Origin: Planctomycetia bacterium
Lineage (GTDB): Bacteria; Planctomycetota; Planctomycetia; Gemmatales; Gemmataceae
Reading direction: 5' to 3'
Length of the DNA stretch: 36,951 nucleotides
Assembly: GCA_005772955.1 (NCBI GenBank)
Contig: SXID01000145.1
Coordinates: forward strand, 1-36,951
Shown: positions 16,438 through 19,344 of the stretch, piece after piece
How the letters are laid out: each line of letters opens with the position of its first letter
Position numbering within the stretch: position 1 is the stretch's first letter
Position numbers and translations under genes: made by a program
Notes under the pieces: model-generated
Database searches by the model: none
What the model was told of the DNA's origin: nothing
Seen by the model: the letters and a program-made list of their open reading frames with translations, nothing else

Positions 16438-19344
16438 ATGAAGAAAGAAATGTTGATCAACGTCCTTCAACAGGAGGAGTGCCGGATTGCCATCGTTGAG
16501 GATGGTGTTCTGGAAGAACTGTACGTCGAACGCGCGAGTCAAGAGAGCTACGTCGGGAACATCTACAAAGGCCGCATCGTCAACATCGAACCGAGCATTC
16601 AGGCGGCGTTTGTGGACTTCGGCATCGGTCGAAACGGGTTCCTGCACGTCTCCGACGTGGACCCCGCGTACTACAAGCACCTGATGTCGAAGGCCGATCT
16701 CGCTGAGTATGAAGCGGAGTTGGATCGCGAGTACGGTGGGGGGGGCGGTGCCTCAGCTGGACGCGGTCCGGCCCCAGGTGGGCGCGGGCGCGACGACCGT
16801 GGCGGTCGTAATCGCGGGCCGAAGCCGCCGCGAGAAATGACCTCGTGGCTCGAACCGGCGACTGCCGCGCCGCGCGACGAGTTCATCGAGGAACCGGAAT
16901 TCGCGTCCGGGATCGACGAGGTTCCGATCGCCGAGGCTGCGCCCGACGAAAGCGAAGCCGGTGACGTGATCGAGGTTGAAGCCGAGGTGGTCGAGGGGGA
17001 ATCACTCGCCGTTGAAGTGGAAGAGGACGGCTTCGGCACCGGTCTCGACGACGTTCCACTGCCGCCACCCAGGCGTGCCGCGTCGCCCGCACCGCAACCC
17101 GCGCAGATCGCGCCGCCTCGAATCGCGATTCACAAGCCGGTCATTCAGCCGCCGGCGCCGGTCGAGGACGACGAGTTCGGGGCCGGGATCACGGACTCGG
17201 TGTCAGGGCTTCCGTCCGCGGGGGGACCGGCCGAGAGTGAGGCGATTGACGCGCTCGAAGCCGGCGACCCAGTCGCGCCGAGCGAACCGGAAGCGAAGAA
17301 GCCACGGACCCGCAAGACGAAGTCTAAGGCCGACGAACCGGCAGGTGAGGAACCCGCCGCGGAGGGCAAGCCTAAGCCGCGTGGCCGCAAGCCGAAGAAG
17401 CAGGAAGGCGAAGGCGACGACAGCGAAGGACCGGACGACAAGCCGAAGTACATGGGCGGGGCCGAACGCCGCACCTCTGCGGACGACGATGAACCGGAGA
17501 TCAAGCCGTTCTTCGATGGTGGGGGCGGCGACGACTTTGACCCAGACGCGCCCAACGACCGCTTCGCCAATGCGCCGCGGGGCGAGGCAAGCGACGAGAG
17601 CGAAGACGAGGAGTCCGCGGAACCACTCGAGCGGTTCAGCGAAGACCCTGAGCCGGCGGAAGCGGCTGAAGCCGAGGCGCGTGATATCGCGCACGACGCC
17701 GAAGGCCCAGCACAAGCCGAAGTCACCGGGCGTGGGTTCAACGACGATTTCGATTCCGGCCCGCCACGCGGGCGCGACAACGACCGCGATCGTGGGCGTG
17801 GCGGGCGTGGGGGGGATCGTGATCGTGATCGTGGGCGTGGTGGTCCGCCACGTGGGCGCGACAACGATCGTGGGCGTGGTGGTCCGCCTCGCGGGCGCGA
17901 CGATCGTGGACCGCGTGGCGCGGGCGGGTTCAAGGGTGGACCCGGTGGGCCGAAGGGTGGGCGTGAGCGAGGCATGCCGAAGCCGCCGATTCAGGAGATC
18001 TTCAAGCGCGGGCAGGAGGTCATCGTACAAGTCATCAAGGAAGCGGTGGGCACGAAGGGGCCGACGCTGAGCACCTACGTCAGCATCGCGGGACGCTACC
18101 TCGTGCTGATGCCGAGCCTGAACCGCGTCGGCGTGTCGCGCAAGATTGAGGATCACGACGCGCGCCGCCGGTTGCGCGAGATCATGACCACGCTGGCGCC
18201 GCCCAAGGGCGTTGGGTTCATCGTCCGCACCGCGGCCGTCGATCGCGACGCGAAGGAACTGCAGAACGACCTCGCGTACCTGCTGCGACTGTGGCAGGTC
18301 GTGGTGAAGCGCCTCAAACGCGTTCAGGGTCCGGTGGAGATCTACCGCGAATCGGACATGATCACGCGGACCATACGCGACATTTTCACCAACGACATCG
18401 ACACGATTTGGGTGGACGAACCGACCGCTTTCTCGCACGCGAGCGAGTTTCTGCAAATCGTGATGCCGAAGTTCGCGAACCGCATCAAGCACTTTGACCA
18501 CACGGAACCGCTGTTCCACCGGTACGCGATCGAGGAAGAGATCGCGAAGATCCACCAGAAGCGGATCGAGATGCCGCTGGGCGGGTCGCTGGTGATCGAG
18601 CAAACGGAGGCGCTGGTTGCTATCGATGTTAACAGCGGTAACTTCCGGGCGGACAACAACGCGGAGGAGACCGCGTTCCAGATGAACATGCACGCCGCGA
18701 AAGAGATCGCGCGCCAACTCCGGCTCCGCGACCTCGGCGGCGTGATCGTGAACGACTTCATCGACATGCGGAGCGAGTCTCACCGGCGCAAGGTGGAGGA
18801 CGCGTTCCGCGACGCGCTCAGACGTGACCGTGCCCGGACGAAGATACTTCGCATCTCGCAGTTCGGCCTCATCGAGATGACACGGCAACGCATCAGGCCG
18901 AGCCTGAAGCGGAGCATCTTCGCGGACTGCTCGCACTGCCGCGCGAACGGGTTCGTGAAGACGAGCGAGAGCCTCGCGATCGAGGTGATGCGATTGTTGC
19001 ATCTGGCCGCGCACCGCGCGCCTGCGGTTCAGTTGGTGCAGGTGAGTGTTCACGCTGACGCCGCGAACTACCTGTTGAACAAGCGCCGCAAAGAGATCGC
19101 AGCGCTGGAGGAACGCGGCAAACTCGAAGTGCAGATCACCGGGCAGGCGGGCGTGTCGCCGGACCTGATGACGGTGCGATGTTTCGACCACAACGGGAAC
19201 GAAGTGCGATTGCTCCCGCCCGCGCCGCTGCCGAAGATGGCGGCCGGGCGCATCCCGCCGCGAGACGACCGCGGTCGCGGTGGTCCGCGTGGCGACCGTG
19301 ACCGCGACGACCGCGGCGGGCGTTACCCGCGCCCGCTGGATTGA
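16438..19344 (+). CDS. rng: RNase E/G with large disordered insert in the S1 domain
   Basis: The 968-residue endoribonuclease for rRNA and mRNA processing starts MKKEMLINVLQQEE with an S1 first half (YVGNIYKGRIVNIEPSIQAA). Residues about 101-512 are an acidic, Pro- and Arg/Gly-rich insert, and the S1 domain resumes at 513 (IQEIFKRGQEVIVQVIKEA). Catalytic residues are kept: D730 in AIDVNSG (equivalent to E. coli D303, with N732) and D773 in VIVNDFIDM (D346). The zinc-link is CSHC at 831-834. A short RG/RD-rich tail ends the protein. E. coli has only a short linker where this insert sits. ATG 16438 is preferred over ATG 16426 (four residues more). The symbol rng is used because no long C-terminal scaffold is present. 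Confidence 0.92.
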   Translation: MKKEMLINVLQQEECRIAIVEDGVLEELYVERASQESYVGNIYKGRIVNIEPSIQAAFVDFGIGRNGFLHVSDVDPAYYKHLMSKADLAEYEAELDREYGGGGGASAGRGPAPGGRGRDDRGGRNRGPKPPREMTSWLEPATAAPRDEFIEEPEFASGIDEVPIAEAAPDESEAGDVIEVEAEVVEGESLAVEVEEDGFGTGLDDVPLPPPRRAASPAPQPAQIAPPRIAIHKPVIQPPAPVEDDEFGAGITDSVSGLPSAGGPAESEAIDALEAGDPVAPSEPEAKKPRTRKTKSKADEPAGEEPAAEGKPKPRGRKPKKQEGEGDDSEGPDDKPKYMGGAERRTSADDDEPEIKPFFDGGGGDDFDPDAPNDRFANAPRGEASDESEDEESAEPLERFSEDPEPAEAAEAEARDIAHDAEGPAQAEVTGRGFNDDFDSGPPRGRDNDRDRGRGGRGGDRDRDRGRGGPPRGRDNDRGRGGPPRGRDDRGPRGAGGFKGGPGGPKGGRERGMPKPPIQEIFKRGQEVIVQVIKEAVGTKGPTLSTYVSIAGRYLVLMPSLNRVGVSRKIEDHDARRRLREIMTTLAPPKGVGFIVRTAAVDRDAKELQNDLAYLLRLWQVVVKRLKRVQGPVEIYRESDMITRTIRDIFTNDIDTIWVDEPTAFSHASEFLQIVMPKFANRIKHFDHTEPLFHRYAIEEEIAKIHQKRIEMPLGGSLVIEQTEALVAIDVNSGNFRADNNAEETAFQMNMHAAKEIARQLRLRDLGGVIVNDFIDMRSESHRRKVEDAFRDALRRDRARTKILRISQFGLIEMTRQRIRPSLKRSIFADCSHCRANGFVKTSESLAIEVMRLLHLAAHRAPAVQLVQVSVHADAANYLLNKRRKEIAALEERGKLEVQITGQAGVSPDLMTVRCFDHNGNEVRLLPPAPLPKMAAGRIPPRDDRGRGGPRGDRDRDDRGGRYPRPLD
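17758..17960 (+). repeat. Degenerate tandem repeats encoding an RGG/DR tract
   Basis: Within the RNase E/G insert, short GC-rich units such as CGTGGGCGTGG and GGTCCGCC recur several times and encode RGRDNDRDRGRGG-type sequence. It is slippage-prone coding DNA and explains the long open frame on the opposite strand. Confidence 0.7.

Follow-up and report, generated by a model that had tools for sequence, protein, structure and literature searches.

Most known degradosome scaffolds are C-terminal tails, and E. coli RNase E is a tetramer. Inserts of 50 to 150 aa within the S1 domain have been described in alphaproteobacteria and plants, according to an excerpt of PMC4245959. The same excerpt states that Caulobacter RhlB binds a catalytic-domain fragment that includes the S1 insert, that a helix of this insert protrudes into the predicted RNA site, with its acidic residues proposed as an RNA mimic, and that the plant enzyme reportedly becomes less active when its insert is deleted. 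In the Pseudomonas RNase E disordered region, as excerpted from PMC11964227, Arg-rich motifs bind RNA and form foci, and other motifs bind PNPase and RhlB. The BR-bodies of alphaproteobacteria are presented in an excerpt of PMC12691583 as clusters driven by a disordered RNase E region. For planctomycetes, the excerpted part of an older survey gives RNase E/G lengths of 509 to 588 only, below those measured here (PMC3071783). A search of an open-licence paper library by title and abstract start found no work on the planctomycete RNase E S1 insert. Here, we analyzed a stretch of 36,951 nucleotides from a Planctomycetia bacterium (contig SXID01000145.1 of assembly GCA_005772955.1; called the window below), for which an earlier note had proposed an RNase E/G carrying a long disordered segment inside its S1 domain.

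An RNase E/G with a divided S1 domain

The RNase E/G gene starts at ATG 16426, with ATG 16438 as an alternative start, and stops at 19344. In profile searches, its product scored above the curated cut-offs of TIGR00757 (489.6 bits; cut-off, 325.95) and PF10150 (339.6 bits; cut-off, 25.5) and below those of the E. coli-type RNase E equivalog NF008074 (437.1; cut-off, 908) and the RNase G equivalog NF008689 (410.9; cut-off, 594). It is the sole PF10150 match of its genome. The best-scoring named records were mostly titled Gemmata, Gemmataceae, or Planctomycetota, and aa 513 to 972 were 97% identical to a record from a MAG titled Singulisphaera sp. GP187. Residues D734, D777, R601-T602, C835, and C838 align with E. 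coli RNase E by phmmer and were invariant in alignments of 39 and 59 rows. In E. coli, D303 and D346, the counterparts of D734 and D777, are the catalytic Asp residues, the Arg-Thr pair is the 5' sensor, and the Cys pair is the zinc-link. The enzyme is intact in sequence and, judged by these residues, would be active. The features of the gene are as follows.

16426..19344, + strand: RNase E/G gene, 972 aa (translation; TIGR00757 and PF10150 profile matches)
16540..16680, + strand: S1 domain, first half, aa 39-85 (Pfam S1 at aa 43-79; phmmer to E. coli 1slj and Caulobacter 4oxp)
16681..17979, + strand: insert in S1 domain, aa 86-518, 433 residues, predicted disordered (homology gap from aa 83-85 to 519 against PDB RNase E chains; AlphaFold pLDDT below 50 over most of it)
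16690..16734, + strand: predicted helix at insert start, aa 89-103 (AlphaFold block means 70-82)
16741..16833, + strand: short RG-rich block, aa 106-136 (composition)
16900..16914, + strand: motif copy 1, FASGI, aa 159-163 (like motif aligned in 14/23 rows, by eye)
17032..17046, + strand: motif copy 2, FGTGL, aa 203-207 (translation; 23-row alignment)
17176..17190, + strand: motif copy 3, FGAGI, aa 251-255 (DDEFGAGI mean identity 0.70 in 23 rows; enrichment)
17296..17415, + strand: K/R-rich block, aa 291-330 (composition)
17443..17517, + strand: conserved block PKYMGGAERRTSADDDEPEIKPFFD, aa 340-364 (mean identity 0.72; AERRT-type motif over shuffles)
17530..17571, + strand: conserved block DDFDPDAPNDRFAN, aa 369-382 (mean identity 0.75; NDRF over shuffles)
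17659..17694, + strand: predicted helix within insert, aa 412-423 (AlphaFold block mean about 62)
17728..17754, + strand: conserved block GRGFNDDFD, aa 435-443 (mean identity 0.70)
17746..17979, + strand: RGG-rich block adjoining the S1 re-entry, aa 441-518 (13 RG, 4 RGG; net charge per residue +0.12)
17980..18078, + strand: S1 domain, second half, about aa 519-551 (matched to E. coli RNase E by phmmer)
18625..18627, + strand: D734, pairs with D303 of E. coli RNase E (phmmer; invariant in 39 and 59 rows)
18754..18756, + strand: D777, pairs with D346 of E. coli RNase E (phmmer; invariant in 39 and 59 rows)
18928..18939, + strand: C835 and C838, pair with the E. coli Cys pair (phmmer; invariant in 39 and 59 rows)
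19231..19341, + strand: short RGG C-terminal tail, aa 936-972 (4 RG, 2 RGG)

The Pfam S1 match at aa 43 to 79 scored 22.2 bits against a cut-off of 22, and the RNase_E_G match began at aa 553. When the protein was compared with PDB chains using phmmer, aa 6/7 to 83 and aa 519 to 897 matched E. coli RNase E. Residue 83 was paired with position 78 and residue 519 with position 87 of E. coli 2vrt/2vmk, leaving 435 residues between the paired S1 positions here versus 8 in E. coli. The end of the second S1 half near aa 551 is our assumption from the E. coli S1 limit. These alignments bore out the proposal of a long segment inside S1 with the catalytic residues in place. The limits first given for it, 16741 to 17973 (aa 106 to 516), held to within about 20 residues, but homology places them at aa 86 and 518 (16681 to 17979); the start was set at aa 86, not 106, because the predicted helix at aa 89 to 103 also lies between homologous parts. 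In the Caulobacter chain 4oxp, the paired positions were 101 (aa 85) and 159 (aa 514), and the window insert thus sits at the Caulobacter insert site. An insert here is not unprecedented, given the Caulobacter insert at the same site (excerpt of PMC4245959); that insert, together with the 50- to 150-aa inserts of alphaproteobacteria and plants, provides a precedent for both its place and its kind, though not for its size, layout, or lineage. The window enzyme is an S1-insert RNase E of the Caulobacter/plant type, with an insert at that loop that is charged and predicted to be disordered.

By composition, the insert runs from the short RG-rich block through an acidic stretch (aa 137 to 290), the K/R-rich block, and a second acidic stretch (aa 331 to 440) to the RGG-rich block, with block limits placed by eye; the D+E fraction of the whole is 0.24. 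The initial description, acidic then RGG-rich, had the order right but was simplified. Pfam, searched to E 1, gave no match to an intein or any other domain within the insert. An origin by tandem repetition was considered and rejected: only four small arrays were found (best score, 136; 1.9 to 2.8 copies), and three of these lie within the RGG block. Recent repeat expansion therefore does not account for the insert as a whole. The C-terminal tail, which had been thought to be missing, lacks a long scaffold, with 37 residues after aa 935, but these form a short RGG tail (aa 936 to 972).

Two AlphaFold runs, with 39 and 59 rows, were read for confidence and secondary structure. Mean pLDDT was 55.7 and 61.2, and pTM was 0.32 and 0.52, respectively. 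Nearly all of the insert had pLDDT below 50, except for the helices at aa 89 to 103 and 412 to 423, and the motif regions were of low confidence in both runs. Both S1 halves match by sequence; in both models, aa 38/43 to 78 also fell below 50, so the S1 assignment is made from sequence, the models failing on the first S1 half.

The RNase E/G gene is preceded by a TIGR03936 gene and PtsI and followed by SelD. The TIGR03936 gene contains an in-frame element of 127 bp (window 15973 to 16099) whose inverted repeat of 40 nt is perfect; 89 matches of the element or its arms were found in the genome, both strands counted. It is reminiscent of the palindromic elements that interrupt genes in other bacteria. 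An antisense open reading frame of 732 aa (window 17203 to 19401, - strand) overlaps most of the RNase E/G gene and is probably a by-product of base composition.

Distribution of the insert among planctomycetes

The RNase E/G family was present in 188 of 195 genomes of the phylum and in 37 of 41 close relatives, the window's own genome being included in both. The insert was measured in 176 of 200 and 38 of 40 loci; clustering reduced these 214 to 135, and in 53 of them the insert reaches at least 100 aa. The earlier note had called for a planctomycete survey of insert position, and S1 inserts of 151 to 934 aa were found in 25/25 measured relatives from the window's own family, its order, and two more families within the same class. 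Inserts spanned 262 to 775 aa in the own family (16 measured, window included, of 19 fetched), 151 to 415 aa in the other family of the order (6/6), 622 and 934 aa in family f62, and 453 and 494 aa in family f63. In four other families of the class, S1 loops were 15 to 80 aa long in all 12 members measured. In f64, a loop of 15 aa was accompanied by a 210-aa C-terminal stretch. Loops were 26 to 36 aa in f2 (6/6), 42 to 80 aa in f3 (4/4), and 42 aa in f4, and the C-terminal tails of these three families (11 measured; loops of 26 to 80 aa) comprised 2 to 13 residues. The combination of short loop and short tail indicates that a long RNase E/G scaffold is dispensable in some planctomycetes.

Three own-family assemblies had no measurable insert, and in two of them, L068 and L073, the reading frame is broken early in the insert. 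In L068/L153 (one genome) and in L073, both of the window's own genus, the first S1 half lies in a different frame from the later insert and core; this break may be either real or a sequencing error.

Members of other classes carried long S1 inserts, N-terminal extensions, or C-terminal tails, although they were chosen mainly for long open frames, so that the shares of these states are not a fair sample. Among the 135 clustered proteins, crude labels placed a long disordered region in S1 only in 50, at the N terminus only in 14, at the C terminus only in 14, at several places in 4, and nowhere in 53. Random pairing gave a mean of 13.3 proteins with a long region at several places versus the 4 found, and 4 or fewer occurred in 0 of 5,000 draws, with relatedness left in. 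This one-place-only pattern fits a scaffold of varying place. On a tree, the fewest changes were 11 for the long S1 insert, 12 for the N-terminal extension, 5 for the C-terminal tail, and 9 for the motif described below, counts that depend on a crude N-terminal coding-length rule and a quick tree without a mixture model and in which gain and loss are indistinguishable.

Selection and conserved motifs

In 7/7 same-genus comparisons, dN/dS of the insert was 0.14 to 0.18, and that of the core after the insert was 0.02 to 0.12 in the same seven relatives; synonymous distances were high, with insert dS reaching 2.0. The insert evolves in frame and under purifying selection. In an alignment of 23 chosen long-insert proteins, mean identity was 0.44 for the insert versus 0.86 for the core. 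In 44 of the 53 long inserts, the last 45 residues were basic and the rest acidic. The 23-protein alignment contained the conserved blocks DDEFGAGI, AKKPRTR, PKYMGGAERRT...PFFD, DDFDPDAPNDRFAN, and GRGFNDDFD and two R/G stretches.

The window insert carries three copies of F[GA]xG[IL], at aa 159, 203, and 251. The 53 clustered long inserts held 34 copies of FGxG[IL], spread over 23 proteins (in shuffles, 0.22 on average and 3 at most); A[EH]R[RK]T was found in 12 (shuffle mean, 0.20) and NDRF in 11 (shuffle mean, 0.10). Each of these counts was reached by 0 of 1,000 shuffles, which are not probabilities, since FGxG[IL] was first noticed in part of the counted data and the rows are related. Nine re-ordered FGxG[IL] controls gave 0 to 2 copies in the same inserts. 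The D+E fraction around FGxG[IL] was 0.42 versus 0.25 for the inserts overall. The motif is missing from 30 of the 53 long inserts and, even in the wider form F[GAS]xG[ILVM], from five of the six members of the order's other family. A resemblance of NDRF to the Pseudomonas PNPase motif NDPR was also considered; it is by eye only and was rejected, as the sequences quoted in the excerpt of PMC11964227 differ.

Of 30 long N-terminal stretches, which run from stop to core and are perhaps partly noncoding, five have FGxG[IL] as well (shuffle mean, 0.08; reached by 0/1,000). Examples on the N-terminal side are L106, L115, L117, L239, and L240, the last with an additional FAQGI in its S1 insert. Lineages that have no long insert can also carry the motif in their N-terminal extensions. 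None of 17 long C-terminal tails contained it. In the window's own genome, a DNA pattern for FGxG[IM/L]x[DE] gave 42 matches versus 7 for the reversed control; of the 30 translated, two were the RNase E copies, and the other 28 were without acidic low-complexity context by eye.

Further blocks were seen by eye. An IPGEDDDLPE-like block is common to the RNase E/G N-terminal extensions of L107, L108, L110, L113, L231, L240, L241, L242, and L247, and EWDxxSSQP to the S1 loops of L107, L108, L231, L243, and L248; both are candidate docking motifs. The C-terminal-tail lineages L256, L257, L264, L266, and L119 end in a PRFLYAAHRKTK-like block (PRTLYASHRKVK in L119), with Arg runs repeated between acidic stretches.

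Possible roles of the insert

Taken together, we consider it probable that the S1 loop has grown into a 433-residue disordered, motif-bearing arm of degradosome-scaffold and RNA-binding type. The intact sequence, S1 position, predicted disorder, selection, conserved motifs, and mostly acidic-then-R/G order agree with the scaffold or RNA-binding region suggested in the earlier note, whose interpretation is supported in part; that an E. coli-type tail was relocated stays a conjecture. The reading draws by analogy on RhlB binding in Caulobacter and on the motifs of the Pseudomonas disordered region. The R/G-rich block adjoining the S1 re-entry would hold RNA near the S1/5'-sensor side. FGxG[IL], AERRT, and NDRF in the acidic stretches may dock one or more RNA-decay partners, a helicase or PNPase being our first guess. 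Alternating charges and RGG repeats, multiplied by the tetramer, could favor RNA-protein clusters like BR-bodies. These bacteria may accordingly assemble their RNA-decay machinery on a scaffold whose position differs from that in E. coli. Activity, RNA binding, partners, and clustering of the insert-bearing enzyme are what we infer for it. PNPase scored over the cut-off in 21 of 21 genomes searched and RNase Y in 20 of 21, the own genome included in both cases and the exception for RNase Y (G226) belonging to the same class; since both genes are present, both products are candidate partners or alternatives.

Other explanations of the divided S1 domain were weighed against these data. An assembly error, two genes fused into one, or an intervening sequence that is excised before the enzyme acts could each split S1 in this way, but the same split occurs in many assemblies and in records titled complete (Limnoglobus roseus, 437 aa; Singulisphaera acidiphila DSM 18658, 599 aa), so the insert is not an assembly join, which the earlier note had named as a refuting outcome; moreover, the flanking halves together complete one RNase E, and the Pfam search gave the insert no intein. 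Such an origin is exceedingly improbable. The insert might instead be a low-complexity expansion that a permissive surface loop tolerates and that serves as a spacer at most, its motifs being kept by common descent only. Its variable length within families (262 to 775 and 151 to 415 aa), its identity well below that of the core, and the frame breaks in two of the three unmeasurable own-family assemblies are in line with this. Against it stand the low dN/dS, the motif counts far over both shuffles and re-ordered controls, and the occurrence of FGxG[IL] where the surroundings show no visible alignment, and we hold this explanation to be quite unlikely.

An autoregulatory role is also unlikely to be the main one. 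In such a role, the acidic stretches or the helix at aa 89 to 103 would mimic RNA and lie over the RNA-binding cleft, and substrate could enter only once they had been moved by the RGG block or a partner. The Caulobacter helix in the predicted RNA site, its proposed mimicry, and the lowered activity of the plant deletion (all from the excerpt of PMC4245959) speak for such a gate, as do the helix predicted to follow immediately on the first S1 half and the acidic content of the insert. However, 433 residues with several separately conserved motifs seem more than a gate would need, and the AlphaFold models are too unsure to decide.

A broader extension of the scaffold-arm reading is more tentative. 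Planctomycetes might have an RNase E/G degradosome of their own, with a partner recruited by FGxG[IL] and a docking region that has moved, lying in the S1 loop in the window's family, in Singulisphaera and its relatives, and in some others, and in an N-terminal extension in members of other classes; further lineages would use a different C-terminal tail. If true, a disordered region at three places and one motif at two would suggest that selection keeps the motif and not the place. FGxG[IL] would also offer a short peptide bait for fishing the planctomycete RNA-decay partner.

Comparison with known systems

S1 inserts as such are already known. What sets the window insert apart is the size, above the described 50 to 150 aa; the occurrence in another phylum; the lack of a long C-terminal tail; and a motif found at two places of the enzyme. 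Among the closest known systems is Caulobacter crescentus RNase E (PDB 4OXP; excerpt of PMC4245959), whose insert occupies the same S1 place and is charged, predicted to be disordered, and partly helical. That insert spans 57 positions between aligned parts, whereas the window insert spans about 430; the Caulobacter enzyme has an additional disordered C-terminal domain, and binding of RhlB to a fragment has been demonstrated there, whereas the partners of the window insert are candidates. Plant chloroplast RNase E likewise has a charged and variable S1 insert, of about 50 to 150 residues by the description in the same excerpt, compared with 433 in the window. The scaffolds of E. coli and Pseudomonas RNase E resemble the window insert in disorder, Arg-rich RNA-binding motifs, and partner motifs (excerpt of PMC11964227); they lie at the C terminus, however, and the candidate scaffold of the window lies in S1. 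In the same way, the clustering region of BR-bodies is C-terminal, whereas its possible counterpart here, read from the gene alone, is the S1 insert.
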